DNA from: Mesostigma viride | Taxonomy: Eukaryota; Streptophyta; Mesostigmatophyceae; Mesostigmatales; Mesostigmataceae | Length of the DNA: 64,000 nt | Direction: 5' to 3' | Assembly (NCBI GenBank): GCA_009746045.1 | Contig: RPFO01000406.1 | Span: forward strand, 2,282,287 to 2,346,286 | In this document: one piece after another, positions 27,090-57,084 of the stretch | How positions within the stretch are numbered: position 1 is the first letter of the stretch | Layout of the letters: every line of letters starts with the position of its first letter | Translations under genes and position numbers: made by a program | Notes under the pieces: model-generated | The model's database searches: none | Told to the model about the DNA's origin: nothing | What the model saw: the letters and a program-made list of their open reading frames with translations, nothing else

Positions 27090-30000
27090 TTAGACAGATA
27101 GACCGACTTGACAGTCAGCATTCATGAGCTTCCTCAGTACATTGTACTGGGCTGGGGCCTTGTGTGGCAGCTTTGTCAATGCATCAGCAGGGTTCTCCTC
27201 GCCAGGGATATGCTTCAAGTCAACCAAACTGGCCAACTCCTTCAGCAACAAATAATCCAGGTCCCGGCTCCTGGCCAGCTGCTTGTGAACAAACTGGACC
27301 ATACCCATGCTGTCTGTTAGCAACAACGTCTCCATCTGCAAGGTCCAAGGGGTAACTGAAGCCAGCTCCAGCATTAACTCCTTTATGTACAGGCTGGACT
27401 GGATCCCCTCGCATATGGCCCTGCATTCTGCCACATCTGAACTGATACAGACCCTCTTCTGCAGTCTGCTGTACCAGCTGAACAAACTTGCCCTGCTCTG
27501 ATAAAAAGCAAACAGAGCAGCAGATCTCCCCCTGACCTTGGTAACCTGGCGAGCATCCATGGAACTGTCAACAAAGATCTCCAAGGTGATAGGCTGGGTA
27601 AAGTCAATCCCAGACAAAATCAGATCAGGGGTACTCTCCACCAACCGGGCTATGACTCGAGGCTTCTCATCCTCAAGCACCTCATCAGGCATTCTGCTAT
27701 GGACCATCAAAGACGGACCACAGATGCTGGCAAACCAGGCCCACATGCCTCTCAACTCAGGTCCTGCAGCCTGGGTGATCTTCTCTGGCAAGGCCTTCAC
27801 AATGGTCTGTTTATAATCTCCTCCAGCCTGAAGCCTGATACTCCACTCCCCGTCCCTCCTGAACAGGGTAGCCTGCATTCCACAGAACACTACAGGCTTG
27901 TTGGGCTCCTGCCACAGCTCCTTGCCCAGTGAAAACTTGCCACTGATGACAGGAATAAACTTCTTCAGCCAGGTCGTGGGGGCTAGCAAATGCAGATCAT
28001 CTCCATGCAAACTAGCATACACTGGCAGACCCTCCCATTGGGCCAGCAGCAAACAGGGATCAACTGAAGACACTCTCAAGCCACACTCACTGATCAGAGC
28101 TTCCTGCAGCGTGAGTCTCCAGATGATTGGGCTCGACCTGAGTCCTTCCAGGCCCTTCAGAATAACCAGGAATTGTTGATGCAGCTCCAGCTTCCAGATG
28201 GCAGGCACCTCAACACAGTAAGGCTCATCCTGCTTCCACACCCTCCTGGCCACTTCTGGATCAGATTTTAAAAATGCCCTCTTGAAGTCCAGCAGCACTG
28301 ATGACATAGCTGCTCCCCTGTTCAGCAACCCCACGTAGAGACATAGCAAAATTCTCCATGTGTCGTGTAGCATCCCTGGCGTGTATAGCTCCTCTCCTGG
28401 CAGACTCCCCGTGCCGTGATACTCATTCAGGACAGGCCTGACATGGGGCACTGATACCTCATCCACAACCTTCCTCTTCAGCACAAATCTCAAAGCAAGC
28501 TTCCTTGATGCTGGGGGACGTCTGTCTGTTGGTGCAGCACACTCAAACTGCAACCACTCCTCCAATGCCTTGGAGAAGGCGAGCTTCCAAGCCTCAAACA
28601 AAGTAGGCGAGCTCATCTCTTGGACCAGCTGGTCATATGTCAAAGGAGAGTGTGCAGCAAGGCTCCTGTGAGTTATGCCAATACTGCTGGGGTGCAACAC
28701 AGCTGGAATCACCAAACTGGCCGCTGGGGGCACCTCCCCTTCATCCCATTTTACACCCTTGACTGGCTTGGCCCTGCACCTGACTGGAAATGTTGTCCTG
28801 AAATTTTCTAGGGGAATCATCCCCCAGCCATCTCTTCTCAGAGCTGTAGCTCTGATAGAAATCCCAGGATTGCCCAGAAAATTCTGACCCAAAATCACAG
28901 GGCCATCATAGTCCTCTAGGACAAGGAAGGTCACATCCACACCCATGACAGGGGCAGTAACCTCTCCCAACACCCTTAGATGCGTCCTACCACTGAAATC
29001 AGACACCCAGGGGCAACTTGGTTCTCCGACCAGCAGTTCTCCTGTATGCTGAGGTCCCATGACAGAAACCTGTGCATTGGTATCTATCTCCATGGCAGCT
29101 ACCTCAGGTTCATCCAACTGGACAAGCTTGGACACCTTAGGCTCCTTCTTGGCTCTTTGCAAAGCCTGTACAATATCTGATAGACGCACACCCCTAGGCC
29201 TGGTGTCGGGCCGTTCCGGAGGTGCAGCCTGTCCGCCTGCTTGCCCAACCACCGTATGTGAAGGTACCCCAGGGGCCGGGCCAGGGTCACCCTGAGGGCT
29301 CGATACAGCTGTAGCACCCTGATCAGGAAGCTCCACGTCACCCCCGCCTTGTACACCAGCGGGCACCTGGAAGAGGTCTCCTTGATTACCTCCCCGGGGA
29401 CGGATCTTTGACCAGGACAGACGGTGCACTGCTTGGGAGCCATCAATGGCCACCCAGCACTTATGGCCAGCGGCTTCTACTCGGGTCACCACCCCATCAT
29501 GCCAGCTGCCACGTTTCCCTGGAAAGCTTGGTTCCTTCCACACAACAACCTGTTGTCCAACGTTAGGTTCTAGGACACTCCAGCCCTTGTCTTTCTGCCT
29601 CAGCTTGAGGAACTTGGCCTCTAGCTTCTCCTTCCATGCCTGCTCAGCATCAGCTGGCAGCATCCTGGTATGCAGCATAAGAGGATTGATGGCAATGTCA
29701 CCAAAGAACATGGGAGTCCTCAGGTTCAGCCTGTCCTCCACAGAACGTAGCCATGCAGATGTCACAATGGCAGATGACGTCCTTGGAATCCTCTCCACCA
29801 GCAGCACAGTCTTGATCTCTTGGATGGCTCTCTCCACCACCCCTTGCTGGCCGTGGCTCTCCCTGGGTGTAATCAGCAACTCTGGAAACTCTGGCAGGTT
29901 CTCACAGCACTCAAACTGAATGTCACACTGCAACAACTCCAACCCAGGGTACCTGCTCCTTGTCAACTTCAGAGCAGCAATCAATGTAGGCTTCTCCATG

Positions 30001-30647
30001 TCAGGCAGGATCTCTAGGGTCTTGTACTTGGTATATCTGTCCACTGCCACCAGCAGCTTCAAACCCCTGATTCTCTGAATATCTACCTGCACATGGCCTG
30101 GCTGCAAAATAGGAGTCCTGGCATGAGACTGCTTGGGCTTTCTAGCAACTAGCCTGCACTTGCAAGCTTGAGCAACCTGTTGGCAGATGGAGTACAACTC
30201 ACTTCCTCCCAGCCGTCTAGCAACTTGCAAAGACTGAGCTGCATGGCCAAACATGGTATGCAACCTTGAGGCAATGTCATACAAGAGAGAAAACCTTTTA
30301 TTGTCATTATTAGCACTCAAGGTATGTACAGATCCCTTATGTACAGGAGGCACCAGGGTCGTGCCTGTCAGACTGTCTCCAGCCCTATCCTCATCCTGAC
30401 CATCCTGTGCCAGTCCTGCACGGTCAGAATGCTTCTGAGATCCACCTGGGTCCACATCACCAGGTCCTACCTCAGGCTCAGCACCGCCATGGCGGGCACG
30501 TTGGCGAGTAACCACTGCAGCTACAGCTGGCATACTCTCTGTGGTAACCAAGCTTGCCCCATCGTGTCCAATAGGCTCTTTCACTAGAGCATGGGGCTGC
30601 CCCTCACTGCTGTCACTAGCAGCTTCATTACACACCCCTGGGGGCAC
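27090..30647 (-). CDS. Pol polyprotein of element B, left body (intact)
   Basis: 1185 residues without a break. Order: integrase zinc region (H130, H135, C162, C164); integrase core D189, D242, E272, with ESHGQQGVVERAIQE around the Glu; basic module with WKEPSFPGKRGSW and HRLSWSKIRPR; retropepsin-like domain with EIDTNAQVSV near 522 and VILGQNFL near 588; RT with DFKRAFLKSD and catalytic LHGDD near 880; RNase H with FVDSSMD, VAECRAI, LTDSMG and ADALTK. The protease lies after integrase, unlike known copia order. The frame begins at a GTG and is open upstream to the gag UGA in the same frame, so it is probably made as a gag-pol readthrough product; no good ATG start is needed. It is closest to the interrupted copy at 33467-45646. 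Confidence 0.9.
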   Translation of the reverse strand: MPPGVCNEAASDSSEGQPHALVKEPIGHDGASLVTTESMPAVAAVVTRQRARHGGAEPEVGPGDVDPGGSQKHSDRAGLAQDGQDEDRAGDSLTGTTLVPPVHKGSVHTLSANNDNKRFSLLYDIASRLHTMFGHAAQSLQVARRLGGSELYSICQQVAQACKCRLVARKPKQSHARTPILQPGHVQVDIQRIRGLKLLVAVDRYTKYKTLEILPDMEKPTLIAALKLTRSRYPGLELLQCDIQFECCENLPEFPELLITPRESHGQQGVVERAIQEIKTVLLVERIPRTSSAIVTSAWLRSVEDRLNLRTPMFFGDIAINPLMLHTRMLPADAEQAWKEKLEAKFLKLRQKDKGWSVLEPNVGQQVVVWKEPSFPGKRGSWHDGVVTRVEAAGHKCWVAIDGSQAVHRLSWSKIRPRGGNQGDLFQVPAGVQGGGDVELPDQGATAVSSPQGDPGPAPGVPSHTVVGQAGGQAAPPERPDTRPRGVRLSDIVQALQRAKKEPKVSKLVQLDEPEVAAMEIDTNAQVSVMGPQHTGELLVGEPSCPWVSDFSGRTHLRVLGEVTAPVMGVDVTFLVLEDYDGPVILGQNFLGNPGISIRATALRRDGWGMIPLENFRTTFPVRCRAKPVKGVKWDEGEVPPAASLVIPAVLHPSSIGITHRSLAAHSPLTYDQLVQEMSSPTLFEAWKLAFSKALEEWLQFECAAPTDRRPPASRKLALRFVLKRKVVDEVSVPHVRPVLNEYHGTGSLPGEELYTPGMLHDTWRILLCLYVGLLNRGAAMSSVLLDFKRAFLKSDPEVARRVWKQDEPYCVEVPAIWKLELHQQFLVILKGLEGLRSSPIIWRLTLQEALISECGLRVSSVDPCLLLAQWEGLPVYASLHGDDLHLLAPTTWLKKFIPVISGKFSLGKELWQEPNKPVVFCGMQATLFRRDGEWSIRLQAGGDYKQTIVKALPEKITQAAGPELRGMWAWFASICGPSLMVHSRMPDEVLEDEKPRVIARLVESTPDLILSGIDFTQPITLEIFVDSSMDARQVTKVRGRSAALFAFYQSRASLFSWYSRLQKRVCISSDVAECRAICEGIQSSLYIKELMLELASVTPWTLQMETLLLTDSMGMVQFVHKQLARSRDLDYLLLKELASLVDLKHIPGEENPADALTKLPHKAPAQYNVLRKLMNADCQVGLSV

Positions 30648-30675
30648 CCTCCAGGGTTCAGGGATGTGTGCAGGC

Positions 30676-31261: not shown

Positions 31262-32176
31262 ATGGTGCAGGAGGAACAACGGCAGCAGGATTTCCGGTTT
31301 CGGCAGTCTGCTGGGGGTTCGATTTCTCCTGAATTACGTTGTGTCGTTCGGGATCTATCTTTATTGCTTGCAGATCGTCCACCTGTAAATCGCAGCTTCG
31401 TGCAATTCGTCGACGACCAGGTCGAAGATTGGGAGCGAATTCTGCGACACGTACAAACCATCGTCATTCCGGAGCACCGGAGCATCGACGACCTCGAGCA
31501 GGAGCTTCACGGGTTGGTCGGCATCCAGACGGTGATTACAGCAGTAGCTGAGCGAGTGCGGACGGAGTTGGCGGCAAGGCGAGGCGAGGTTGCGGAAGCA
31601 GCTGGCGCAGGGCGACACGAGTTTGTACCGACAGTAGCGGGCGCGGGAGTACCACGTGCTTTCGCAGGCGGCATCGGCGACGAGGGTGTTGCAGCGGGGC
31701 CAGTTAGGCGTGAACGACGCGGAGCGGAGCACTACAGGCGGCTTGCAGAGGTCGGGGCGACAGCGGAAGCCATCGCCGGAGGACAGCGCGCGACAAGAGT
31801 CGGCAGGTTTCCAGAGCGAGTAAGAGTTCCTTTTCAGGAGCTGCCCCGGCCCCTTCGCGTTCGTGTGACGCGTTGGGAAGAGTTTGCACCTCTTGGGTAC
31901 GATAGTGACCTTGAGGAGGGAGCAGGGGGTGTCGCTGGGCTAGGCGACGAGACACTTGGTGACCACGAGGTGCCAAGATACAATCCGCGGGGTGCCAACG
32001 ACGGGTTGTCACCTGTCTACTATACCAACGGTGACGATTCAGTCATCGCGGGCCGACAGCGGGTCGACGACGGCGCAGCAGGTAGCAGGGTACCAGAGCT
32101 GATTGTGGTGAGCGACGGCGACAGCGACAAGGAGAACCAGGACGCGCCTGGGGCCAGCCGTGGTGGTCTTGCCTGA
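31262..32176 (+). CDS. ORF1 of element B, extra gene upstream of gag
   Basis: 304 residues. The ATG at 31262 is preceded in frame by TGA, so this start is firm. Residues 25-105 look helical, with regular hydrophobic spacing (for example VVRDLSLLL and VDDQVEDWERIL). The middle is Ala/Gly/Arg-rich, and the end is acidic with Ser/Asp (SDGDSDKENQD). No known domain, zinc finger, signal peptide or clear membrane segment. Elements C, D and E have an ORF at the same place; C and E are clearly homologous to each other, while B is related only by position and overall layout. Gag starts 103 bp downstream. Possible roles include an RNA-binding or structural protein, but the sequence does not tell. Confidence 0.7.
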   Translation: MVQEEQRQQDFRFRQSAGGSISPELRCVVRDLSLLLADRPPVNRSFVQFVDDQVEDWERILRHVQTIVIPEHRSIDDLEQELHGLVGIQTVITAVAERVRTELAARRGEVAEAAGAGRHEFVPTVAGAGVPRAFAGGIGDEGVAAGPVRRERRGAEHYRRLAEVGATAEAIAGGQRATRVGRFPERVRVPFQELPRPLRVRVTRWEEFAPLGYDSDLEEGAGGVAGLGDETLGDHEVPRYNPRGANDGLSPVYYTNGDDSVIAGRQRVDDGAAGSRVPELIVVSDGDSDKENQDAPGASRGGLA

Positions 32177-32278
32177 GTGGTAACACTTGGCACTTTCCTT
32201 TCTTGTTCAGTAGCTTATATTGCTTTAATTGCTGCTTGGCCACTTGGCTGGCTGTAGCAGATCTGAACAGAGGCCATC

Positions 32279-33466
32279 ATGGAAGATGGAGCTATCAACC
32301 AACAAGCGGGTTTTATGGGCTTCGGGCGGCGCGGCGCTGGGATGGATGGACGAGATGGACGCGATGGACGCGGTGGACGCGATGGACGCGGGGACGGCCA
32401 AGCGCTGGGAGACCAGGCTGATGTGCCAGATAATCAGAGCCAAGGATCGCAGGGCGGGCAGCACGCGCCAGCCGCAGATCAAGCGGCGCCTAAGCGACCA
32501 ACCGTTGCTGAGGGGTACGCGGTGCTAGGCCAGTTTCAGTCCATCAAGGACAATTGGCAGCCCCGGGATGCTGAGAGGATGTTAGAGGACATGAACTTGT
32601 ACACGGAGATATACAACGGTGACAAGCTTCGCATCTTGGCGTCTAGTGCCTACATACGGCAGTCGGCGAGGCAGCTGTTCAAGTTTGTTCGGGAGCGACA
32701 TGCGGCGGGGGACACCTGGACGGCGTTTATGACGCGACTCAGGTCGTTCCTGAGTGACAAGAGGACCATAGATGGGTCCCACCTGAAGCAAGAATACCTG
32801 GACTACAAGCCCATCAAGGGGCAACTAGTGGTCCACGCCTTTGAAGACTTCGTCAAGCTGAGGGAGGACGCCATGGCCAAGGGCTTCTTCGTCGCAGATC
32901 GGATGGCCATGGGCGACTTTCTCAAGTCGCTGCAGCTGGATCCGGTCACCATGGATAATGTGACCATCCACATGCGACAGGTCCATGGCTGGGCAGCCAT
33001 GACGGACCAGTTGTATGAGTGTTTCAGCGGCAAGTACGTGGGTGGTAAGCGCCCTCGTCAGGGTGATGAGGAGGCCACTGAACCCACGGTTAAGTCCATG
33101 AGGGGATCGGGCCACGGGGGCCCAGCGCCCTCGAGAGGGCCTGAGACCTCTTCAAGGGGTCGAGGAAGGTCCAGGAGGGGGCGTGACAGAAGGGCTGGAC
33201 GGGGGACCCCGCCGAAGTCGGGACATCCACAGTCCCAGTTTGACTTCAAGAGGGTGGGTGGTCCTCCCAAGGCTGGGCCCAGCAGTGGGACCTCACGGGA
33301 CATCAGTCAGGTGGAATGTTATTTCTGCCAGGGGAAGGGTCACTTCAGGAATGAGTGTCCCTCGTACCTGAGGCAGGAAGGTCAGAGCAAGCCAGCTCAG
33401 GGTGGCAGCAAGGACAAGGCTGGTCCATCCCAGGACAAGGGCAAGGGCAAGGCTGCTGATCATTGA
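32279..33466 (+). CDS. Gag of element B (capsid and nucleocapsid)
   Basis: 395 residues from the ATG at 32279. It begins with a Gly/Asp/Arg-rich repeat (DGRDGRDGRGGRDGR), followed by a helical capsid-like region from about 75 to 260 that includes RMLEDMNLYTEIYNGD and the later FSGKYVGG. A basic region and one zinc knuckle (CYFCQGKGHFRNEC) near 348-361 follow, then a Lys/Gly/Gln tail. Gag packages the RNA. The stop is TGA-CTT-GAG, after which the pol frame continues in the same register, so part of the product is probably extended into Gag-Pol. Confidence 0.85.
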   Translation: MEDGAINQQAGFMGFGRRGAGMDGRDGRDGRGGRDGRGDGQALGDQADVPDNQSQGSQGGQHAPAADQAAPKRPTVAEGYAVLGQFQSIKDNWQPRDAERMLEDMNLYTEIYNGDKLRILASSAYIRQSARQLFKFVRERHAAGDTWTAFMTRLRSFLSDKRTIDGSHLKQEYLDYKPIKGQLVVHAFEDFVKLREDAMAKGFFVADRMAMGDFLKSLQLDPVTMDNVTIHMRQVHGWAAMTDQLYECFSGKYVGGKRPRQGDEEATEPTVKSMRGSGHGGPAPSRGPETSSRGRGRSRRGRDRRAGRGTPPKSGHPQSQFDFKRVGGPPKAGPSSGTSRDISQVECYFCQGKGHFRNECPSYLRQEGQSKPAQGGSKDKAGPSQDKGKGKAADH

Positions 33467-33615: not shown

Positions 33616-34259
33616 ATTTAGATGAACGCGGATCAGTGAGTTTCTGGTCTTCCCAAGATGTGATGAATGGAGCCATGGTTTCAACCAGCGGCTTTTAACC
33701 TTTACCACAGTTGCCTCACTACCCTGTGGTCACTAGCCTGAGGCGGCAGCACCCACGGACGGTGTTGGGAAAAGACGCTTGGCCACTGCTGTGTCCGAGC
33801 CTTTCTAGGTCTCACCATTGCTGCCAGGCCTTGCACGCCTTGGCAGGTCCGCCACTGTCAATTTCCTTGGTTGCATCAATCCAGGACGTCTGTCCTTCCA
33901 TGAATGACAGTAACGCTCTGGATTTATCCGTCATGACAAGTACCCGTCCATCCCAGGCCTGCAGGACTGCCAGTCCTGAAGTCCTGTGACATTCTTGGTA
34001 CCATCAACCAATATTGACCACAGTACCTCCTAGTGACAGTCGGTCCTGTGACACGTAACGTGTGATGGTTCACCCAACACTGCCACGTGCCCTGTCCCTC
34101 ACGTGTCCTTAGTCCTGGTACTGCTGTAGCGTCCGGCGGCATTACTTCGGGACTTGATAACTCTCAAGTTCCTTGTCCAAATGAGGCGTTTAGCACGGCG
34201 TTGGAAAGGCCACTTCAAGTATGATATGCTTAGCATATTGCATCACCAATATGCTAACT
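33616..34259 (-). repeat. 3' LTR of element C
   Basis: 644 bp. In element orientation it starts AGTTAGCATATTGG and ends CATCTAAAT. It is preceded, on the minus strand, by a purine-rich tract ending AAGAAAGGGTTGG. Confidence 0.92.
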
Positions 34260-35223
34260 CCAACCCTTTCTTGTTTTGGAGCTGCAAGCTTCACACCATG
34301 ACCAACCCATTCCTTGCTGCCTTGTGAAATGGACACCTGGTTACCCTGGACTTATAATAAGCCTCATGAGCACCCCTTTTGCCACCTTAATGGTATCCTC
34401 TTTTAGGGATCTATGGTTCAACCCTGCCATCTGATCATTAACTTGACCTGCAGGTCATCCCCAACCCTTTCTTTTGCAACTGTACCTTGGCTTGGGCTTA
34501 AAGGAGGATATTGAATATTCCTTAGGCAACATATCCTGGATATCTGAATGAGAGGCCCTGACTACAGGAAACGTATTACAGTGAGTTCCTGGTCTTCCCA
34601 GTTATCACTGGCGCCCGTTTCATGGCGCCCGCCCCGAGCGTTCCAGGCATCATCCATCCAAATGTTCACCAATGGAAACCACTTCAACACCACTGTGCCA
34701 CTGCTTGATGGGGAGCCCATGTCATCACTGGGTGTTAAAGCCCAGGAGTCATACATACCAGGCTGTGGCTCAACTAGGGAATCGAACCCTACCCCAGAAC
34801 CCCAGGTTAAACTTAACCTGGTCACATGACAGACAACAAGAGAGATTGGCATACAACATGATTATGGTTTATTATAGAATATCCACCAAAACCAATGTTG
34901 AGTGTTCCCAGTGGACCAGCCTGCACCAGCAAGGCCCAACTGTCAGGTTACAACACCATAATATCCAAGGTTGTCACTTATTCACAGCTAAAGAAAACTA
35001 AACAAGAGAGATATATACAAACAACCTGGAAGAACTCTCAACATGGCCTGCCCTGTCATGGCCTAACTGCCCGAGGCCAAAGGCATCCCACTGTGCTAAT
35101 CCTTTACAGGAAGAGCTTGCTCCTGTTGAGCCTTCTACCTGCTTGGTGACAGGTAGGCTACCTGTTGCCCTCCCCCCTGGGGACAACAGCACTGGTCAGC
35201 CACCAACTGGCAAAGGCTGGACT
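34260..35223 (-). other. 3' untranslated region of element C
   Basis: Non-coding between the pol stop and the 3' LTR. It contains the polypurine tract at its LTR end. No ORF with recognisable similarity. Confidence 0.7.
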
Positions 35224-38200
35224 TCAAGTCCCACCAGAAAAGGGGTCCATGAGCCCTTTGAGCACAGGGTATTGTAGCTCAGCCTTGCTCTCCAGCTTGG
35301 TGAGGGCGTCTGCTGGGTTGTCAACACCAGGCACATGTTCAAGATGAGCAAGGTAAGACATCTCCTTCAGCAACAAATAATCCAGATCCCTGCTCCTGGC
35401 GAGCTGTCTGTGCACAAACTGCACCATGCCCATGCTGTCTGTCTTGACCAGTGTGTGCAGCTGCAAGCTACAGGAAGCTACCTGACAGAGCTGGTAGAAT
35501 AACTCCCTGAGGTAAAGAGCAGTGTGTAGCCCCTCACATATTGCCCTGCACTCAGCAATGTCACTGCTGGGCGTCACCCTGTTCTGTAACCTACTGTACC
35601 AGCTGACCAGAGAAGTGTGCTCCTGTTGTAGTGTAATGAGTGCTGCTGCCCTACCCCTGACATCCGTCACCTTCCTGCTGTCCATGGAACTGTCCACAAA
35701 AAGCACCATGTTGAGTGGTTTGTACAAGTCCACAGCTGCCAGTATGAGTGGAGGTGAGCTCCTGACAGACTCAACCACCTGCTCTGCCCCTACCTCAACC
35801 AGCTGAGCATCTGTGAGCCTACTCAGCACCAACAAATCTGGGGCACAAATGCTAGCTAGCCAAGCCAACATTCCCCTGATTGTGGCACACCTGGCCTGGG
35901 TAATGGGCTGCTGGAGGGCATCAATGATCTGCTGAGGATAGTTGTTGCCACCCTCCATCTTGATAAACCAAGTACCTGCCCTCTTGATCAGCGTGGCCTG
36001 CATTCCACAAAACACCATGGGCTCATCCTGCTTCATGTGCTGGACCTTTCCTAACTCAAACCTCTTCTGGATCTTGGACAGTACTGAATCCACCCACTCA
36101 GGAGGCCCTAGAAGGTGCAGGTCATCTCCATGCAGAGATGCAAACACAGGCAACCCTTCATGAGTACTCTGGAACAAGCAAGGATCAACTGGAGACACAG
36201 TAAAGCCACAGTGAGTTTTCAGAAACTTTTCCAGGCTCTTTCTCCAGATGATAGGGCTGGACCTGAGACCCTCCAAACCCTTGAGTATTCTGAGATATTT
36301 TGACTTGATCTCTGCTCTCCACACCTTGGGCACTGTTACAAAGAAGGGAGGGATATCACGCCACGTCTCCTTGGCCTGCTCCACATCACCTTTAAGAAAA
36401 GCCCTCTTGAAATCAATCAGCACAGAGCTGTACGCAATGCCCTTGACCAGGAAAGACAGATATATACACAGAACAATCCTCCAGGTATCATGCAGCATCC
36501 CAGGCGTATACAACTCCTCATCTGTCAGCTCCCCCGTGCCATGGTACTCAGTCACAACTGGCCTCACATGTGGCACCTGCACCCGTCTATCTCCTTCAGC
36601 TTGAGCACAAACAAGAGCCTTAGCAACTGATGCTCCCTGGGCAACTCATCCACAGGCTCAGCACAGTTAGACACTATCCAGTCATGCCCACTGGAGACAA
36701 ACCCTAGAATCCATGCCTTAGCCATCTTGGGGCTTTGCATCAACTCTACCAACTGGTGCCAGGAAATAGGACTGTGACCAGCAATCTGGTACTTGTGCAC
36801 CCCCAAGTCCCGTGGATCTAGGGTGGTTGGGATGATCAACAAGTCCTCAGCAATGGGCTCCTTGCCTTCAGGCCCCACACTCTGCTGCCCCTTCACAGCC
36901 TTGACTGCCACAGCTAGACCCTTGGAGTAGTGATATCTCTGGAGGGGCAAACTGCCATGACCTTCTAGTGCAAGCTCATCTGCTGACAGAGTCACTCCTG
37001 GCATGCACAAGAAATTCTGGCCCAAAATGGCAGGCCCCTGGTACCCTTCCACCACACAGAACGCAGTGGGGACACCCAGGATAGGCACAGTCACTTCCCC
37101 TAGGATCTTCATTGTTACAGTGCCCGTAAAGTCACTCACTGCCCTGCAGCCAGCCTTATTCACCTTCAGGCCCTGAGCATCCTCCACCCTGATGATAGAC
37201 ACCTCTGAGTTAGTATCCACTTCTAGGGTAGCAGCCCAGCAAGAACCCCATTCAGTCAACTTAGATACCTTGGGATCCTTGTGCTTGTTGAACATGAGCG
37301 ACCGGACAATGTCTGCCATGAGTGGCCTCTTGGACCCTGGTGCAGGCCCAGCCCCCGTTGGCTCCACCACAGGTGATGCAGTTGCCTCCTGCACCTCATC
37401 ATCATCAGAGGGATAGCCACCTCCCACGTCAGTGACAGGCACATCAACTACCTGGTCCTTAACCTGGCCCTCCAGCCAACACTGGGGTCCAGGCCCGTCT
37501 GCAGGCCAGATTGCATGTGGCTTGCGTTCCTTGACGTTGGCCCAGCTCAACCTGTAAACATGCCTGGGATTACTCTCCAAGGCCACAAGGCAGGAACGAT
37601 TGGCATCTTCCACACAGGTCACCACCCCGTTCTGCCACTTGCCCCTCTTGCCCTGCATTGATGGCTCCTTCCACATTCTGACCTTCAGCCCCACCTGAGG
37701 CCTCAGCACATTCCAGCCCCTATCCTTGCGTCTCAACTGAGCAAACACCCTGTCTGCTTTCCTCAAGCATGCCTGGACCACTTCCTGGGCTAGCATCCAA
37801 ACTGCAGTGCTACAGGATTGACAGCCACCCCGTCATAATAGTAGTTTATTCTGAGGTTCAACTGTTCTTCCACCTGCCTGGTCCACACTGCCCTCTCCAA
37901 AGCAGATGCTACCAGTGGCACCTTAGGTTCTGCCAGCACTACGGTCTTGACCTCCCTGATGGATCTCTCCACAGCACCTTGCTGTCCATGGCTCTCCCTG
38001 GGCGTGACCAGCAGCTTGCATGGCAGTTGCTCCTGCTGTGACAGTAGGCACTCAAACTGAATATCAGCCTGTACTGTCTTGTACACCCCAAAGCCTGGTA
38101 AGAGAGTCTGCAAGCCCAGCAGCAGGGTATTCCCCTTCATATCTGGCAGAATCTGGAGCAGCCTGTACCTGCTAAATCTGTCCACTGCCACCAAAATGTA

Positions 38201-38761
38201 TAAGCCCCTGATATGCTGGACGTCTACCTGGATGTCCCCCTTCTCCCTGGCAGGCTCCCTAGCATGGGACCTTGGCTTCTTGGCAGCATTCTCCTTACAG
38301 GCACATTGCTCAGCTGCAGCCCTGCATGCTTCCCTCAGTGGCTCATCTCCAATCTTCCAACCAAACATCTCAGCCATGGCTGTGTGACCAAAGATATTGT
38401 GCAGCCTGCGTCCAGCATCCGTGTAGCTCAGTTGCCTAGCCAGATTACGCACCTGGGAAGACGCCTGGACGGGCCCTGCGTGTGAGGACGCAACATCCAC
38501 CTTCTGCATCTTGGATCCAGAGGACCCAGCAGACCCTCCCAGCAGAGCATCTAGGCTCCCAGAGCCAACCCTGTCTGGGGACCCTCCACCTGTTGACAGT
38601 TGAGGGGATTGTTGTGCTGCAGCATGCATGCAATCTTGTGGAATGAGAACATCAGTACACCCCTGGTGCTGATCAGAGGTGGCACCCTGCCCAGATTTAT
38701 TTACATGTGAAGCTGTGTCCCCACAGGGTGTCTCACTATGTACACGGGACTGCTTCACTAG
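35224..38761 (-). pseudogene. Pol of element C (two frameshifts)
   Basis: Three overlapping frames together cover the polyprotein. The first (38758-37790) has the integrase zinc region (LHNIFGH, CACKENAAKKP) and core (DIQFE, ESHGQQGAVERS). The second (37796-36564) has the basic module and the retropepsin-like domain (LEVDTNSEVSI, AILGQNFL). The third (36582-35224) has RT (DFKRAFLKGD, SLHGDD) and RNase H (FVDSSMD, IAECRAI, ADALTK). Compared with element E, one base is missing at about 37793 (after LALQFG) and one at about 36575 (LKEIDG). The first frame joins the gag UGA in register. Element E is its closest relative in the window. Confidence 0.85.
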
Positions 38762-40083
38762 TCACTTCTGATCAGACTGCCCCTTCTTCTTGTTTGGGCA
38801 ATCCCTCTTCCAGTGACCTTCCTTGCCACAAGCAAAACACTTGCTCTTGCCAGACCCTCCCCCTGGGGCCTTGCTGTCCTGCTTGTTCTGGTTGCCTGAG
38901 GCCTGATTGTTATTCTGCCCCTGGCCACCACCCTTACCCTGCTGATGGCTGTTACGGTTGCCAGACTGGTTCCCCTGATTCTGGTTCCCCTGCTGACCCC
39001 TCCACCACCCTGGTTCTGCTCCTTCTGGGCCTGCTTCCTTCTCCTGCTACCATACCGTGTCCCAGATGGGGTACGGTTCTTGCCCTGGCTAGCCTGAGAC
39101 GCTGACCCTCCCTGAGAACTGATACCCTTGCAGGTAGGGACCCGGGTCCTGAAGTTTAGTATCACACGCTTCAGAGCCCCCCAGGTGCCATCAGTGAGAT
39201 CACAGAGCTGCCTAGCAGTAGCCCTACCTTCCTCTGACAAGCCCATCTTATCAAAGAAGTGGTCTGCTGCTGCCCTGACTGTCACACTGAAGCCCTGCTT
39301 CTTGCCTGCCTCCACGATCAACTCAAACCTGGCCAGCTCAGCAGCCACCTCACCCTTGATCTCAAACTCATCAAATTCTCTCTTCTTTTCCATGGTGAGA
39401 TTGTGAACCCTGTCAGAAAACTCCTCCTTGATGTCATCCAGGAACTGCAGCCAAGTGTGCCCCTCTTTCAGAGCATGCCTAGCCATGTCATTGACCCTTT
39501 CAGACGACCCTTGTTTGCGGTGGAAGAGTGAAACACCCTGACAATATCCACACCTGCTGCGACAGAGCCCACAACTAGCTTCATGTCATCAAGCCATTTA
39601 TCCAGGTTGTCTTGCTTCAGGGAGGGTTGAGCGCTTTCTGCCCATTCATGACTGTCACAGCATCAGAAAATGGACGGGTGCCAGGCAACACACTCCCCAC
39701 ACGCACTGGTGGTGCCTGGGGAGGGTCAATCCTAGCCTCCAAACGCTCGGGCAACATACCAGACACCCTATCGTGAACAGCAGCTTGCTTTGCAGCACGC
39801 ACACCTGGGGTGACGATGGCGTCCTCCTCACCAGGCGTTGTGAGCACCACTGCATCCGTAGGTCGCCTGGCACGCTTGACTTTCTCCGCCTCAGCTTGCC
39901 CATCACGCCACCGCTTGTGTGTTCTCCCGGCCTGGGGTCCATCTCTGGGATAGGTTGCCCAGCTGGCGCCTCCACGCCCCTCTCCTCCATCGCCTCCCCT
40001 TCCTCTCTGGCGATGTCCTCCTCTGCCGTTCGCTCCCGTTGCTCCTCGAATGTCGCCGCACCCCGGCTTGCCCTCCTAGGCAT
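38762..40083 (-). pseudogene. Gag of element C (several frameshifts)
   Basis: The likely ATG is at 40083 (MPRRASRGAATFEEQ). Similarity to element E gag then moves between frames near 39890, 39620, 39490 and within the Gln/Gly-rich tail. Conserved pieces include SDAVTVMNGQKALNPP, a capsid segment (FDEFEIKGEVAAEL) and, at the end, a zinc knuckle C-x2-C-x4-H-x4-C (CFACGKEGHWKRDC). The stop is TGA at 38764-38762, followed by CTA-GTG in the pol frame. It cannot give an intact capsid protein. Confidence 0.8.
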
Positions 40084-40151
40084 TATATACAATGGCTGCG
40101 ACCAACTTTGCAACAAGAAAACAGCAAACTCTCCACCTATCCTCCACCCCC

Positions 40152-41116
40152 TCAAGCCTCGTTTTCAGACGAAGCTTCTCCTGCAACCGGTGCAGGTGCT
40201 GGCTCGTGGAACGGTCCCTCCACCGGATTCAATGGCTGCCCCTGGTCGTCGTGAGTAGGCACAGGCCTAATAACCACCGGAAGCCTCAAACCATACGCGT
40301 AATCACGTATCCAGCGAGAACGCCCCCACCTCAACAAATGGGCCTCACCTAAACCAACGTTGTCGTCAATGTGGTAGCGATTAAGCTCGTCCCGCTGCGC
40401 CTGCTCACGGCCCTCCTGAGAGCCGTCGCCCTCGTGACGCCTCTGGGCCGGCTGTACTACCGCCCCTGCTGGCTGATCTACGAAGTCGTAGAAGGCGTCG
40501 TCGGCTGAGACCTCTCGACCGCCAACCACGTCGACAGTCAAACTTAGCTGGTTTAACTCTCGGCGAGAATGTGGAGTATCCCGACTAGTGTAGATGGAGA
40601 AGGGATTAAGAGTAATGAAGACACGATCAGCAGCGCCTCTGGTCAACTCTAAGACAGAGTGCGCCAGATTCTGGCACTCTGCCACCAACGCCTGCGTACT
40701 GCCACGAACGATGGCCTCCCGCCTGTCCCGGGCGACCTGCACCACGTTTGGCACGCCGGTGTAGTCGTCCCCAAGGCGGAGATTGGCGACAAGGTCGTTT
40801 ATCTCTCGGGCACCCCCGAGGCTTATGGCAATTATCTGCAAAAGCAGAGTGACCACCTGCTCAAACGCGAATGCGTTTGTGTGGCCAGCCCGCCAAGACG
40901 CTGGCAGCCTTCTGATGATTTCCGCGAGGTCCTCGCGAAATCTCAGCAGCTGCTCGGCTGCTCCTCGGACGTACTCGCCCGGTGCCGACACCGCACGAAT
41001 ATTTCGGCGCACTTCCCCGAGTCCTCGTGCCCTCCTGCGGGTACTGGACTGGACGCCGCTACCGTTGCTGCACGCGCAAAGGTGTTTGTCCTAGCTTCAG
41101 AGTCCGAATTCGACAT
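40152..41116 (-). pseudogene. ORF1 of element C, upstream of gag (one frameshift)
   Basis: The ATG at 41116, 24 bases inside the 5' LTR, begins MSNSDSEARTNTFARAATVA. The frame changes near 41010 and then stays open for 286 residues to 40152. This part matches ORF1 of element E along most of its length: PGEYVRGAAEQLLRFRE against PGETGRVAVEELVRIRD, ADRVFITLNPFSIYTSRDTP against ADRFYITTQPFGVYSRLDTP, and RWIRDYAYG against RWVRDLAWH. A protein conserved in this way between diverged elements was under selection. No known family; helical first half, probably beta-rich middle. Confidence 0.7.
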
Positions 41117-41140
41117 ATCCGTCGACCAGACTGTAATACG

Positions 41141-41784
41141 ATTTAGATGAACGCGGATCAGTGAGTTTCTGGTCTTCCCAAGATGTGATGAATGGAGCCA
41201 TGGTTTCAACCAGCGGCTTTTAACCTTTACCACAGTTGCCTCACTACCCTGTGGTCACTAGCCTGAGGCGGCAGCACCCACGGACGGTGTTGGGAAAAGA
41301 CGCTTGGCCACTGCTGTGTCCGAGCCTTTCTAGGTCTCACCATTGCTGCCAGGCCTTGCACGCCTTGGCAGGTCCGCCACTGTCAATTTCCTTGGTTGCA
41401 TCAATCCAGGACGTCTGTCCTTCCATGAATGACAGTAACGCTCTGGATTTATCCGTCATGACAAGTACCCGTCCATCCCAGGCCTGCAGGACTGCCAGTC
41501 CTGAAGTCCTGTGACATTCTTGGTACCATCAACCAATATTGACCACAGTACCTCCTAGTGACAGTCGGTCCTGTGATACGTAACGTGTGATGGTTCACCC
41601 AACACTGCCACGTGCCCTGTCCCTCACGTGTCCTTAGTCCTGGTACTGCTGTAGCGTCCGGCGGCATTACTTCGGGACTTGATAACTCTCAAGTTCCTTG
41701 TCCAAATGAGGCGTTTAGCACGGCGTTGGAAAGGCCACTTCAAGTATGATATGCTTAGCATATTGCATCACCAATATGCTAACT
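41141..41784 (-). repeat. 5' LTR of element C
   Basis: 644 bp, differing from the 3' copy by one noticed base (C/T at about 41577). It is followed, on the minus strand, by CGTATTACAGTC, the presumed primer-binding position. Confidence 0.92.
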
Positions 41785-43357
41785 AGTATGCCAGCTGTAG
41801 CTGCAGTAGTTACTCGCCAACGTGCCCGCCATGGCGGTGCTGAGCCTGAGGTAGGACCTGGTGATGTGGACCCAGGTGGATCTCAGAAGCATTCTGACCG
41901 TGCAGGACTGGCACAGGATGGTCAGGATGAGGATAGGGCTGGAGACAGTCTGACAGGCACGACCCTGGTGCCTCCTGTACATAAGGGATCTGTACATACC
42001 TTGATTGCTAATAATGACAATAAAAGGTTTTCTCTCTTGTATGACATTGCCTCAAGGTTGCATACCATGTTTGGCCATGCAGCTCAGTCTTTGCAAGTTG
42101 CTAGACGGCTGGGAGGAAGTGAGTTGTACTCCATCTGCCAACAGGTTGCTCAAGCTTGCAAGTGCAGGCTAGTTGCTAGAAAGCCCAAGCAGTCTCATGC
42201 CAGGACAGACCTATTTTGCAGCCAGGCCATGTGCAGGTAGATATTCAGAGAATCAGGGGTTTGAAGCTGCTGGTGGCAGTGGACAGATATACCAAGTACA
42301 AGACCCTAGAGATCCTGCCTGACATGGAGAAGCCTACATTGATTGCTGCTCTGAAGTTGACAAGGAGCAGGTACCCTGGGTTGGAGTTGTTGCAGTGTGA
42401 CATTCAGTTTGAGTGCTGTGAGAACCTGCCAGAGTTTCCAGAGTTGCTGATTACACCCAGGGAGAGCCACGGCCAGCAAGGGGTGGTGGAGAGAGCCATC
42501 CAAGAGATCAAGACTGTGCTGCTGGTGGAGAGGATTCCAAGGACGTCATCTGCCATTGTGACATCTGCATGGCTACGTTCTGTGGAGGACAGGCTGAACC
42601 TGAGGACTCCCATGTTCTTTGGTGACATTGCCATCAATCCTCTTATGCTGCATACCAGGATGCTGACAGCTGATGCTGAGCAGGCATGGAAGGAGAAGCT
42701 AGAGGCCAAGTTCCTCAAGCTGAGGCAGAAAGACAAGGGCTGGAGTGTCCTAGAACCTAACGTTGGACAACAGGTTGTTGTGTGGAAGGAACCAAGCTTT
42801 CCAGGGAAACGTGGCAGCTGGCATGATGGGGTGGTGACCCGAGTAGAAGCCGCTGGCCATAAGTGCTGGGTGGCCATTAATGGCTCCCAAGCAGTGCACC
42901 GTCTGTCCTGGTCAAAGATCCGTCCCCGGGGAGGTAATCAAGGAGACCTCTTCCAGGTGCCCGCTGGTGTACAAGGCGGGGGTGACGTGGAGCTTCCTGA
43001 TCAGGGTGCTACAGCTGTATCGAGCCCTCAGGGTGACCCTGGCCCGGCCCCTGGGGTACCTTCACATACGGTGGTTGGGCAAGCAGGCGGACAGGCTGCA
43101 CCTCCGGAACGGCCCGACACCAGGCCTAGGGGTGTGCGTCTATCAGATATTGTACAGGCTTTGCAAAGAGCCAAGAAGGAGCCTAAGGTGTCCAAGCTTG
43201 TCCAGTTGGATGAACCTGAGGTAGCTGCCATGGAGATAGATACCAATGCACAGGTTTCTGTCATGGGACCTCAGCATACAGGAGAACTGCTGGTCGGAGA
43301 ACCAAGTTGCCCCTGGGTGTCTGATTTCAGTGGTAGGACGCATCTAAGGGTGTTGGG

Positions 43358-43765
43358 AGTTAGCTGAGATACCTCGAGGCTGACTTGTGGCCGGAGCCAC
43401 ACAGGGGAACATACAGTGTGACCGGAGTTATTCTGGCGGAGACAGAATAACGGTGCCGAGCGCCGGTTGTGGCGCGACGCACACACGTGTACGCAAGTTA
43501 CGTAGCTAGCAACTAGTCTAGTGGACGTTGTGCGTAGTAACGTTGCTCCAGGTCTAGAAGCCTCTAGAACCTGGACACGTGGCGGACAAGTGAGCGTAGT
43601 CCAGTTGTCCTAGGGATCTCGTGTGAGTGATGTGTCCACGACATATAATGTGTGCCCACATATGGAGTGAATAATGACAAGGAACGCCCCGATCCCTGGC
43701 GTTGCTGCAGCCATCATTCTCACACTGAGTCCCAACGTCTCCGACGTACATCTATATATCTAACT
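43358..43765. mobile_element. solo LTR of a further family, in pol of B
   Basis: 408 bp from AGTTAGCTGAG to ATATATCTAACT, flanked by TTGGG on both sides (43353-43357 and 43766-43770). The left body of B shows the empty site with one TTGGG. The ends AGTTAG/CTAACT are the same type as the LTR ends of B to D. It differs from all of them in sequence. Confidence 0.88.
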
Positions 43766-45646
43766 TTGGGAGAGGTTACTGCCCCTGTCATGGGTGTGGA
43801 TGTGACCTTCCTTGTCCTAGAGGACTATGATGGCCCTGTGATTTTGGGTCAGAATTTTCTGGGCAATCCTGGGATTTCTATCAGAGCTACAGCTCTGAGA
43901 AGAGATGGCTGGGGGATGATTCCCCTAGAAAATTTCAGGACAACATTTCCAGTCAGGTGCAGGGCCAAGCCAGTCAAGGGTGTAAAATGGGACGAAGGGG
44001 AGGTGCCCCCAGCGGCCAGTTTGGTGATTCCAGCTGTGTTGCACCCCAGCAGTATTGGCATAACTCACAGGAGCCTTGCTGCACACTCTCCTTTGACATA
44101 TGACCAGCTGGTCCAAGAGATGAGCTCGCCTACTTTGTTTGAGGCTTGGAAGCTCGCCTTCTCCAAGGCACTGGAGGAGTGGTTGCAGTTTGAGTGTGCT
44201 GCACCAACAGACAGACGTCCCCCAGCATCAAGGAAGCTTGCTTTGAGATTTGTGCTGAAGAGGAAGGTTGTGGATGAGGTATCAGTGCCCCATGTCAGGC
44301 CTGTCCTGAATGAGTATCACGGCACGGGGAGTCTGCCAGGAGAGGAGCTATACACGCCAGGGATGCTACACGACACATGGAGAATTTTGCTATGTCTCTA
44401 CGTGGGGTTGCTGAACAGGGGAGCAGCTATGTCATCAGTGCTGCTGGACTTCAAGAGGGCATTTTTAAAATCTGATCCAGAAGTGGCCAGGAGGGTGTGG
44501 AAGCAGGATGAGCCTTACTGTGTTGAGGTGCCTGCCATCTGGAAGCTGGAGCTGCATCAACAATTCCTGGTTATTCTGAAGGGCCTGGAAGGACTCAGGT
44601 CGAGCCCAATCATCTGGAGACTCACGCTGCAGGAAGCTCTGATCAGTGAGTGTGGCTTGAGAGTGTCTTCAGTTGATCCCTGTTTGCTGCTGGCCCAATG
44701 GGAGGGTCTGCCAGTGTATGCTAGTTTGCATGGAGATGATCTGCATTTGCTAGCCCCCACGACCTGGCTGAAGAAGTTTATTCCTGTCATCAGTGGCAAG
44801 TTTTCACTGGGCAAGGAGCTGTGGCAGGAGCCCAACAAGCCTGTAGTGTTCTGTGGAATGCAGGCTACCCTGTTCAGGAGGGACGGGGAGTGGAGTATCA
44901 GGCTTCAGGCTGGAGGAGATTATAAACAGACCATTGTGAAGGCCTTGCCAGAGAAGATCACCCAGGCTGCAGGACCTGAGTTGAGAGGCATGTGGGCCTG
45001 GTTTGCCAGCATCTGTGGTCCGTCTTTGATGGTCCATAGCAGAATGCCTGATGAGGTGCTTGAGGATGAGAAGCCTCGAGTCATAGCCCGGTTGGTGGAG
45101 AGTACCCCTGATCTGATTTTGTCTGGGATTGACTTTACCCAGCCTATCACCTTGGAGATCTTTGTTGACAGTTCCATGGATGCTCGCCAGGTTACCAAGG
45201 TCAGGGGGAGATCTGCTGCTCTGTTTGCTTTTTATCAGAGCAGGGCAAGTTTGTTCAGCTGGTACAGCAGACTGCAGAAGAGGGTCTGTATCAGTTCAGA
45301 TGTGGCAGAATGCAGGGCCATATGCGAGGGGATCCAGTCCAGCCTGTACATAAAGGAGTTAATGCTGGAGCTGGCTTCAGTTACCCCTTGGACCTTGCAG
45401 ATGGAGACGTTGTTGCTAACAGACAGCATGGGTATGGTCCAGTTTGTTCACAAGCAGCTGGCCAGGAGCCGGGACCTGGATTATTTGTTGCTGAAGGAGT
45501 TGGCCAATTTGGTTGACTTGAAGCATATCCCTGGCGAGGAGAACCCTGCTGATGCATTGACAAAGCTGCCACACAAGGCCCCAGCCCAGTACAATGTACT
45601 GAGGAAACTCATGAATGCTGACTGTCAAGTCGGTCTATCTGTCTAA

Positions 45647-47895: not shown

Positions 47896-48090
47896 CAGCA
47901 GAAGTTAGAATGTGGTGGAAGGGCACCAAAAGGGAAGAACGGACGCAATTTATACCCACCTAAACGCCAAATATCTGTAGGCGCCCAACCGTCATTGCGA
48001 CCTGTCATTTGTCAGAGTTAGGTATTGCGGACTTGTCCTAGAAGTAACACCGCGCCAAAAAGCTAGTCAACCGACTCCTGACACCGGATG
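47896..48090. other. flank between hypothetical gene and element D
   Basis: No gene. Ends in GGATG, the left target duplication of element D. Confidence 0.5.
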
Positions 48091-48707
48091 AGTTGTGATA
48101 GTGAGAATGCCACGAATTCCGCCATGGTTCTTGCAGGAAGTTGCCTTTATTAATAACAAGGAAACACAGACGTAAGTCACGTCACTTCCAAGACTGCACG
48201 CAGCACAGACGACAGGGTCGCAGTGCCAAGAGAACGTGCACGCAAGAACTAGCGTCCCGGTGTGACCAAGTCACTCATATAGCTTGCTAGGGACGCGTCC
48301 AAGTATTCAGCTGCACTGTCACAGCTGAACTGTCAATCAATTGATTACACAGACTCTGGCACGCCTTTGGCGCGCAGATCTATCAATTGTCCATACGGCT
48401 AGTCCTGTGGACCTATCCGTACACTAGTCAGCATCAATTGTCTCATAGGTCCTGGCGCGCTACAGCACGCCTACCTATCAATTGACCATCAAGTCCTGTA
48501 CAAGTCCTGTCAACGTCCTGCGGACTATCAAAGTGACACTTGTACATCCTGTGTCCGTACGCGCCCACAGTGGCGCGCCGGGTACTGTCGGCACAGCCTA
48601 GGAAACGTCATAACTTTTACGTTCCTTAACCAAATGAGGCGTTCAAGGTGCCGTTGGAAAGAGCGTAACAATCTCTATCCATCTAACGTAAATCCTTTAC
48701 GTTAACT
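48091..48707 (-). repeat. 3' LTR of element D
   Basis: 617 bp; on the plus strand AGTTGTGATAG...ACGTTAACT. The purine tract (minus strand AAAGAAAAGAAGGGATTGG) abuts its start. Confidence 0.9.
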
Positions 48708-49656
48708 CCAATCCCTTCTTTTCTTTAGGGATCACATCCCCTGCCAGGGACCCTTGAAGTAGCTTGAAATGTCCTTCACTCCAGCTTGAAGCTTGAACAG
48801 ATGTCTTTAATGGCCATTGCCATTCCCCCAGCCCTTTCTTTTAAGGAACTGGAAAAGAAACAGATCTGCCACAGGGAAAACCATTCCATGAGAAATGGAT
48901 AAAAACCTATGGAAGTGGCATTACAGAGTACCACCAGATATTAGAAGCACACAAAATTAAATACATACAGGTTAATTCTATGAGGTCTTCTCCAGGAATT
49001 AATCCCATCACCTCGGTAGAGCCTCCAGTACAATGACCTTCTGGCGGTGAGTTACATTAATCCCAGATACTAATCCCATAAAACCCAGTACATATTCAAT
49101 ATAAGTACAATAAATCCATGACAATTAAAATACCACTTGACAAAGTAAGGCGTATTACAATAGTTTGCCTGTCATTCTCTCAACAGGGGTCTATTGGCGC
49201 CCGTCTTACGGCGCCCGTCTACTTGCCAGATGGTAAACTGCCACAGCAAACAAATGACAAAATGAAACACATAGGCAACAATTAAATCCTGCCCTGGGGA
49301 ACTAGGGAAGTCTGAACAGGCAAACACCTGAACAGGCCAGCTTGTAGAAACATAATACCAGGGAATCGAACCCCGCCCTATAAACCCCAGAATAAAGGTT
49401 CCCAGACCATTGTGAGAAGTATGTACAAATATACATTTCTTTTAAAATAGAATACATGGTCTGTAATGGACCTGTCAACCTTGTGTAGTCAACAGCATGA
49501 ACCCCAGCCAAAACCTGGCTGTATCCTGATTAAAATCAGAGTGAGTGTACCATGGTCCATGAGCCTTAGTACAGACTAAAATACAGGTATTATGCCAGTC
49601 ACAATGCTGACACTACCACACAATCTGCTCTCCAATGCCCTATAACCAGCACCAGC
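48708..49656 (-). other. 3' untranslated region of element D
   Basis: Non-coding, AT-leaning, with the polypurine tract next to the LTR. No ORF of interest. Confidence 0.7.
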
Positions 49657-52600: not shown

Positions 52601-53277
52601 ACCTGTCCACGCACACCAACAGTTGCATGCCCCTGATGTGTTGGATATCACACTGCAGATCACCAATGCTCTGAGGTAGAGCTTTGGCATGTGATTTCCT
52701 GGGCTTGTTGGAGGACAACTGGCACTTACACCGTGAGGCAGCTTGCTGACACGCCTTAAGAAGGGGTGCCCTGCCCATACGGAAGGCAAAGTTGTTTGAC
52801 AGAGAAGTGGCATGCCCAAACATGTTGTGGATTCGGGCACCCAACTCCTGGTACACAGAGGAAGCAGTCCCTGGCACAGTCAGGACTGTGCTGTCAGGTT
52901 GTCCAGCATCACCATGCTGACTTCCATCCTGTTCTGACTCAGAGCCTGAGTCACCCTGCTCATGCCCAACACCTGGACCGCCAGCAGGGACCACATGCAT
53001 ACCACCAGAGGCCTTCACACCCCTCTGTGGTTGTACATTGGTTTCTCTCAAAATGAGAGGTCCACCCTCGTGCCCAGCACGAGGATGCATGGGTCAGACA
53101 TTCTTACAGCTGCACAGCTGTCAAGGACGTCTTCATAGGAACCTGTACCTCTCCAGGTGACCTGGGGCCACACTGAACCTGGAGATCACCCTCTTGTTGC
53201 CCAGATATAAAATCTGCATTGGAGCACCTGGCCTCCCCCTTGGGTGAATTAAGGTGTGTAGGGGTTGCCTCAGACAG
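49657..53277 (-). pseudogene. Pol of element D (at least four frame breaks)
   Basis: Frames 53090-51417, 51483-51133, 51157-50849 and 50865-49657 together give the usual set. Integrase zinc region: IHNMFGH, CKCQLSSNKP. Core: VDMQFQ, EAHGQQGAIERA. Retropepsin-like domain: LEVDTNSQVSI, ALLGQNFL. RT: VDFKRAFLEG and catalytic LHGDD. RNase H: YVDSSMD, VAECRAI, ADALTK. Breaks lie near 51430, 51145 and 50860, plus one between the gag stop and 53090. Domain order is the same as in the other elements. The last 402 residues remain open, so decay is mild but fatal. Confidence 0.85.
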
Positions 53278-54393: not shown

Positions 54394-54563
54394 CCTGCAC
54401 TACCAGCTATTCAAAGAACACCTTAACAAAGCAGCAGAAAATATGTACAAAATTTTTGTGTCGCCACTGGCGCCTGCGCCGGTGTCGCTGCCGCCCCCGC
54501 GAATTGCCGCTGAAAAGTCGACAAAAAAATGTCGACGAGTACTGCAAAAGAAAATTAGGCCGA

Positions 54564-55272: not shown

Positions 55273-55296
55273 CTTTTTAACAGAGCGTGTAATACG

Positions 55297-55912
55297 AGTT
55301 GTGAGGGTAGAATGCCACGAATTCCGCCATGGTTCTTGCAGGAAGTTGCCTTTATTAATAACAAGGAAACACAGACGTAAGTCACGTCACTTCCAAGACT
55401 GCACGCAGCACAGACGACAGGGTCGCAGTGCCAAGAGAACGTGCACGCAAGAACTAGCGTCCCGGTGTGACCAAGTCACTCATATAGCTTGCTAGGGACG
55501 CGTCCAAGTATTCAGCTGCACTGTCACAGCTGAACTGTCAATCAATTGATTACACAGACTCTGGCACGCCTTTGGCGCGCAGATCTATCAATTGTCCATA
55601 CGGCTAGTCCTGTGGACCTATCCGTACACTAGTCAGCATCAATTGTCTCATAGGTCCTGGCGCGCTACAGCACGCCTACCTATCAATTGACCATCAAGTC
55701 CTGTACAAGTCCTGTCAACGTCCTGCGGACTATCAAAGTGACACTTGTACATCCTGTGTCCGTACGCGCCCACAGTGGCGCGCCGGGTACTGTCGGCACA
55801 GCCTAGGAAACGTCATAACTTTTACGTTCCTTAACCAAATGAGGCGTTCAAGGTGCCGTTGGAAAGAGCGTAACAATCTCTATCCATCTAACGTAAATCC
55901 TTTACGTTAACT
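55297..55912 (-). repeat. 5' LTR of element D
   Basis: 616 bp, AGTTGTGAGGGTAG...GTTAACT on the plus strand. Adjacent on the minus strand is CGTATTACACGCTC, the presumed primer-binding position. Confidence 0.9.
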
Positions 55913-57061: not shown

Positions 57062-57084
57062 CGTACTATTGCTTCCACGCTTTC

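Follow-up and report, generated by a model that had tools for sequence, protein, structure and literature searches.

In elements of the Ty1/copia superfamily (Pseudoviridae) the Pol polyprotein carries protease (PR), integrase (INT), reverse transcriptase (RT) and RNase H (RH) in the order PR-INT-RT-RH. For Ty3/gypsy elements (Metaviridae) the order PR-RT-RH-INT is given in the REXdb plant survey (PMC6317226), and the diatom CoDi elements are reported to follow the expected order PR, IN, RT, RH (PMC2806351). Here we describe a family of long terminal repeat (LTR) retrotransposons from the streptophyte alga Mesostigma viride, which is algal and Ty1/copia-like as are the CoDi elements but differs from them in that a protease-like domain is placed after INT and before RT. 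We analysed a window of 64,000 nucleotides, i.e. the whole stretch of DNA introduced above (contig RPFO01000406.1), and searched 439,911,974 bases of the M. viride genome. The published assembly comprises 441,847,188 bp with 60,339 LTR elements counted, and the terms copia and gypsy are absent from the main text of that paper (PMC6947507).

Order of the Pol domains

The window contains the related LTR elements A, B, C, D and E and a second copy of B, named B' (Table 1). In the Pol of element B we find one after the other the HHCC region (H-x4-GH ... C-x-C), the acidic residues D200, D253 and E283 and an SH3-like part, followed by D533-T-N-A-Q-V-S, V-I-L-G-Q-N-F-L, RT (LHGDD) and RNase H. The same order was read in A and in E (60605-63811), where the N-terminal part of the integrase lies in another frame. 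Both elements C (35224-38761) and D (49657-53093) have broken frames in the window, where the B-type order is seen in pieces; an unbroken copy of D elsewhere in the genome (L070, 1208 amino acids) contains the whole order. The order INT, protease-like domain, RT is also kept in P0004, a protein from another record (source 'ena', 66% identity). The Ty1/copia order is therefore found in none of A-E and P0004, as in all of them the protease-like domain stands between INT and RT. A preliminary description made from the window alone had claimed for all five elements A-E the succession of INT, D-T-x-[AS]-x-x-S, [IL][IL]GQxFL, RT and RNase H, the second motif following about 65-70 residues after the first. 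The succession was confirmed and the measured distance is 65-67 residues.

The window does contain nested and inverted copies (B, B' and C), and the unusual order could in principle have arisen artificially, through nested insertions, from chimeric copies or by misassembly. We consider this extremely improbable. Uninterrupted pol genes are present elsewhere in the genome: each of the 39 scored copies of the B pol is stop-free and 100% identical, and the same is true for all 35 scored copies of the A pol, where these counts and the one that follows cover best-candidate matches only. The D domain was identical and stop-free in 150 of 150 scored copies. Furthermore the separate record P0004 has the identical order. 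An origin by nested insertion or misassembly was rejected because of the stop-free pols at other genomic sites, and we conclude that the order INT, protease-like domain, RT, RNase H is genuine and widespread in this genome.

No credible protease was encountered upstream of the integrase, in agreement with the preliminary description. A Pfam search at E-values up to 10 with nine pieces of ORF1, gag and the N-terminal part of pol gave none, nor was one recovered when 11 regions were scanned for the motif in three frames. The scan returned three matches. One of them has a hydrophobic-hydrophobic-Gly motif downstream, falls within the low-complexity sequence with which the element E gag begins and was unseen in the other scanned regions; in the other two the second motif is missing. 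The gag of element A (L069) was inspected for a protease by eye alone. As a comparison we used three Copia elements from the same genome (L044, L045 and L071/L072), which show zinc knuckle, protease, integrase and RT in this succession (the knuckle of L045 is outside the frame that was read). The reading method thus detects an upstream protease where one is present. In these elements (L044, L045, L072) the protease precedes the integrase and has DSA/DTG and LLSV.QL-like motifs, whereas in the family described here the protease-like domain follows the integrase.

Integrase, reverse transcriptase and classification

The identity of the first Pol domain as an integrase was confirmed by profile comparison and predicted structure. 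A five-row integrase profile matched retroviral integrases in the PDB (best E-value 3.8e-4), and the best 60 of 94 matches each represent an integrase, a pol protein or an integrase chimera. The AlphaFold model reached a mean predicted local distance difference test (pLDDT) of at least 70 in 22 of the first 30 ten-residue blocks, and in a Foldseek search the best 50 of 1,326 matches included the intasomes of prototype foamy virus (PFV) and human immunodeficiency virus (HIV), with a best E-value of 6.1e-12 for PFV. The Mesostigma elements thus have a profile match and a predicted fold in common with retroviral integrases. The second and third acidic residues are separated by 29 residues in the B integrase compared to 35 in HIV. 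In A the third acidic residue is Asp (GKVDR, window position 1316), in B-E it is Glu. No profile match to the integrase of the same-genome Copia elements was obtained with hhalign (50 of 60 and 86 of 100 shuffles were as good).

RT and RNase H classify as Copia-type by profile similarity, in a comparison that took in no Gypsy RT. Against the three same-genome Copia elements hhalign gave E-values of 4.5e-8 for RT and 7.1e-9 for RNase H, and in both cases 0 of 60 shuffles were as good. The RT-RH profile had no matches in the PDB; the Pfam family RVT_2 was found in element E with an E-value of 6e-4, below its cut-off, and was unlisted for the B and A pieces. In an RT tree of 13 rows, which included Copia but no Gypsy, the family forms one clade with a support of 100/100, far from the same-genome Copia elements, with A as a long branch. 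The proposal that the elements form a group apart from the Copia elements of this genome is therefore borne out within the scope of this tree. The term 'Copia-like', used in the preliminary description, is supported for RT and RNase H (hhalign), whereas neither the integrase nor the protease-like domain matched a Copia profile.

By its LTRs, target duplication and CCHC Gag, the family belongs to the LTR retrotransposons. LTR pairs are present in C and D. Five B loci were fetched, three of which (L009, L010, L012) have an LTR pair of ∼697 bp, while L011 and L013 are without a full pair. Target duplications of 5 bp, a Copia trait, were found in L009, L010, L012 and C. The 5' LTRs of the same three B loci have the ends AGTTAAC...GTTAACT, not TG...CA, and the gags of B' and E exceed the cut-off of the Pfam family zf-CCHC. 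The family thus shares with Ty1/copia homologous RT and RNase H, an integrase before RT, a CCHC Gag and the 5-bp target duplications. Judged by these sequence characters, it is an LTR retrotransposon family whose RT and RNase H are of Copia type but whose Pol departs from the defining Copia order.

The domain between integrase and RT

The middle domain resembles the D-T-G-A ... ILG-D/N pattern of Ty3/gypsy elements and cellular retropepsins. It differs from them by the missing glycine, and the RT and RNase H of the family are Copia-type. We aligned six family rows (A, B, C, D, E and the relative P0004) and compared them to 19 canonical gypsy and cellular retropepsins of the same genome, many of which are close kin to one another. 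The second motif [IL][IL]G-x-[DN] is present at retropepsin spacing, with P at the last place in A. The D of the first motif and the G of the second lie 65 residues apart in four rows (B, C, E and P0004) and 67 residues apart in A, and the domain of element D aligns in register with B (a spacing of 47 reported by the regular expression came from an earlier ILGQ); in the 19 comparison sequences the distance from D to the second motif is 71-72 residues. The paired motif was composed after the family had been seen and is hence partly post hoc; it was found in 6/6 family rows, in 17 of the 19 comparison sequences and in 0 of 20,000 column shuffles. Among the six-frame open reading frames (ORFs) of the window with at least 80 amino acids only the five domains A-E contain it.

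The six-row profile returned four of 177,635 PDB sequences at E-values up to 10. The top three are mutually related retroviral proteases (E-values 0.92, 3.4 and 3.8, singly non-significant), aligned in the correct register in the C-terminal half (about residues 46-98), and the fourth is an unrelated protein. Using hhalign, the domain scored 21.9 against the 19 same-genome retropepsins at the D-T-G loop, a score that none of 200 column shuffles attained. For comparison, genuine Copia PR reaches 19.6 against the same set. No match was obtained to a profile built from three Copia PR sequences (12 of 60 shuffles were as good), though with so small a profile a distant kinship is possible. The ratio of non-synonymous to synonymous substitutions (dN/dS, NG86) is 0.16-0.44 for the domain (5 of 10 pairs with a finite value) and 0.08-0.36 for RT (9 of 10 pairs), so the domain is much like RT; the domain ratios are rough because dS was >1 in every finite pair. 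Taken from these comparisons, a retropepsin origin of the middle domain is highly probable.

The aligned active site shows D and T in 6/6 rows. These are followed by N in five rows (B, C, D, E, P0004) and by K in A, then by A or S, and finally by S at the place of T31 (HIV protease numbering). The active-site motif D-T/S-G is therefore replaced by DTN or DTK in all six rows, and the GQN turn, matching GRN of HIV protease, is kept in five of the six domains. The D-T-x-[AS]-x-x-S motif of the preliminary description is indeed present, but it is not the canonical motif and the loss of the glycine had gone unremarked.

We then consider the genome as a whole, which was searched at the DNA level for the pattern [DE][VIM]DTx[AS][QE]V followed mostly by S or T. 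This protease-loop signature occurs at 1,102 + 1,098 = 2,200 genomic sites, the reversed pattern at 0. For 100 listed of the 2,200 sites the third active-site place is N in 93 cases, K in 7 and G in none. Six stretches fetched from signature sites showed DTN in five cases and DTK in one. The frame breaks downstream of the motif at L080 and L082, and at L085 a stop immediately precedes the domain. Because numerous identical, stop-free pols exist for B and A, we assign DTN and DTK to recently spread families.

The missing glycine suggests another explanation, namely that the domain is a retropepsin without catalysis, kept for dimerisation or as a scaffold, and that the cutting is done by a host protease, by a Copia protease in trans, or not at all. 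The replacement by N or K in 6/6 domains and at all 100 listed sites is consistent with it, as is the conservation of the remainder of the domain despite this loss. However, the catalytic Asp and the next Thr are invariant in 6/6 and the GQN turn in 5/6 domains, and Asn can stand in for Gly in tight turns, where it is a common substitute. We regard such a pseudoprotease as possible though rather doubtful. Whether the middle domain is still an active protease is, in our view, evenly poised.

Gag-pol junction

In B, C, D and E gag ends with UGA-CUN just before pol. For B we observed UGA-CUU directly before the pol frame at 13/13 loci covering ten copies; the junction reads UGA-CUG in D (L070), UGA-CUA in C and UGA-CUU in E. 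UGA-CUA is a leaky stop context. Counted back from the UGA, gag stays open in the pol frame for 396-399 codons in L010 and B' and for 373 codons in D (L070). Shorter open stretches precede the UGA in L009, L011, L012 and L013 (123-148 codons) and in C (94). The loci L009, L012 and L013 have a common open stretch of 123 codons though their pol is intact, and this frame break could be real or come from sequencing. As gag is broken in 4/5 B loci, 'intact' applies to pol and not to whole elements. The gag of E has an open frame as far as the UGA, a further 129 codons are open beyond it, and the integrase then lies in another frame. Element A differs from B-E: its pol lies in the -1 frame and overlaps gag, and a regular expression found no canonical slippery heptamer in this overlap. 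The UGA-CUN context is likely to represent programmed readthrough, and from the arrangement of the frames we infer readthrough for B-E and frameshifting for A.

Weighing a proposed replacement of the protease

In our proposed mechanism the LTR transcript would give Gag, and a minority of ribosomes would read through the UGA to make Gag-integrase-protease-RT-RNase H. The protease-like domain would act as a dimer and cut at both of its flanks, so that integrase would be released from the Gag side and RT-RNase H from the opposite one. As its active site it would use D-T-N (or D-T-K), the glycine replacement being tolerated by the fold. The ancestral Copia protease before the integrase would have been lost and replaced by this domain, whose motif is closer to those of gypsy or cellular retropepsins. 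That these are LTR retrotransposons ordered INT, retropepsin-derived domain, RT and RNase H, whose DTN/DTK protease is active after UGA readthrough and has replaced the ancestral Copia PR, seems to us marginally probable. Only tentatively do we suggest an INT-PR-RT-RH lineage in which a gypsy- or host-type retropepsin at a new site replaced Copia PR, works with D-T-N or D-T-K and is made as part of Gag-Pol by UGA-CUN readthrough; here the doubts slightly outweigh the support.

Several observations weigh against a working, replaced protease. For the domain alone, modelled from 5 rows, AlphaFold gave a mean pLDDT of 39.7; in a longer model from 7 rows the strands of the domain had 46-56. There was no retropepsin among the matches listed for the first domain model, either in Foldseek (best 50 of 83) or in VIA-align (best 50 of 56). 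The Pfam family gag-asp_proteas was found in 1/5 domains with an E-value of 0.2, covering the C-terminal motif only, and the unrelated family DUF6898 ranks above it with 0.16. In a test with a single hidden Markov model (HMM), 30 of 3,548 shuffles scored at least as high as the best real score. The catalytic Gly is missing throughout the family, and its loss is expected to harm activity in known retropepsins. Finally, among the five B loci only L010 has a gag that is open up to the UGA (396 codons). As the two AlphaFold runs left the fold of the domain at low confidence, its retropepsin origin is likely but unproven.

These results leave some room for a small beta domain of other origin that carries a D-T motif by chance and might, for instance, extend the C-terminal part of the integrase: there is no confident fold, no Pfam family at cut-off and only a weak single-HMM test. 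On the other hand the motif pair, the spacing and the weak profile matches agree on one register, and the integrase has its own SH3-like part, after which ∼70 residues are predicted to be without structure. We consider an unrelated domain improbable.

Other features of the window

Table 1. Positions in the window of the elements and their coding regions (entries marked L070 are positions in that locus).
Feature	Positions	Strand	Remarks
B pol open frame, 1196 aa	27090..30680	-	stop to stop; same frame, directly after gag UGA
B integrase region (residues 130-450)	29331..30293	-	HHCC, DDE core, SH3-like C-terminal part; PDB profile search, Foldseek
B retropepsin-like domain (residues 511-609)	28854..29150	-	D533-T-N, ILGQNFL; motif pair, profiles, alignment
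B RT (LHGDD) and RNase H, Copia-type	27165..28718	-	limits approximate; hhalign vs same-genome Copia
A pol, 1344 aa	317..4351	+	-1 frame relative to gag
A retropepsin-like domain	about 2246-2548	+	DTK
B', second B copy	42180..45646	+	pol broken between 43367 and 43649
B' ORF1 and gag	31262..33466	+	ORF1 31262-32176; gag with CCHC knuckle 32267-33466, ending in UGA
Element C	33616..41784	-	LTRs 33616-34259 and 41141-41784, 644 bp, 99.8% alike
C retropepsin-like domain	about 36984-37280	-	
Element D	48090..55912	-	LTRs 48090-48707 and 55296-55912, 618 bp, 99.5% alike; pol frame-broken here
D retropepsin-like domain	about 51420-51707	-	
Element E	56878..63811	+	ORF1 56878-58221, gag 58267-59625, pol from 60605
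E retropepsin-like domain	about 61748-62044	+	
Gag UGA	33464-33466 (B'); near 38759 (C); 59623-59625 (E); L070:1849-1851		pol B 30680

B' and E have their genes in the sequence ORF1-gag-pol; the same holds for C and D, in which frames are broken or ORF1 is cut. Element C, whose gag and pol are frame-broken, is inserted in B' with a 5-bp duplication and separates the ORF1 and gag of B' from its pol. In E the N-terminal part of pol is disrupted (59626-60700, in other frames), and a 61-bp tandem repeat lies at 60355-60489. The extra ORF1 upstream of gag (31262-32176, 40152-41090 and 56878-58221) has no convincing Pfam match. The ORF1 of C is homologous to that of E (33% over 270 amino acids, E-value 4e-39), and the B ORF1 matches neither. 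B and B' are nearly identical and inverted (25819-31172 and 32975-46917, with C nested in B'), for which rearrangement and misassembly are both possible. Long tetranucleotide arrays of CTCC, GAGT and CTCA occur at 17287-18230, 9311-9641 and 19826-20149, and inverted copies lie near them (9495-10257 and 16661-17423).

Relatives and implications

Three protein searches for relatives elsewhere (at most 7,996 candidates scored in each) yielded P0004, P0005 and P0006 only. P0006 is an M. viride entry of EukProt and shares 85% identity with element E across 52% of the query. In IMG/VR the queries P0001 and A3 gave no relatives. We found no report of the order INT-PR-RT in the open PMC literature that we consulted, with subscription papers and Repbase outside this search. 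The REXdb plant survey dropped polyproteins with an unexpected domain order as likely mispredictions (PMC6317226).

The order of the Pol domains is a main criterion by which the superfamilies of LTR retrotransposons are separated. The 2,200 signature sites together with the many identical stop-free pols illustrate that an unexpected order can be real and successful. The family also raises the questions of whether the glycine of D-T/S-G is dispensable for an aspartic protease, and of how a polyprotein with the protease in its middle is processed.

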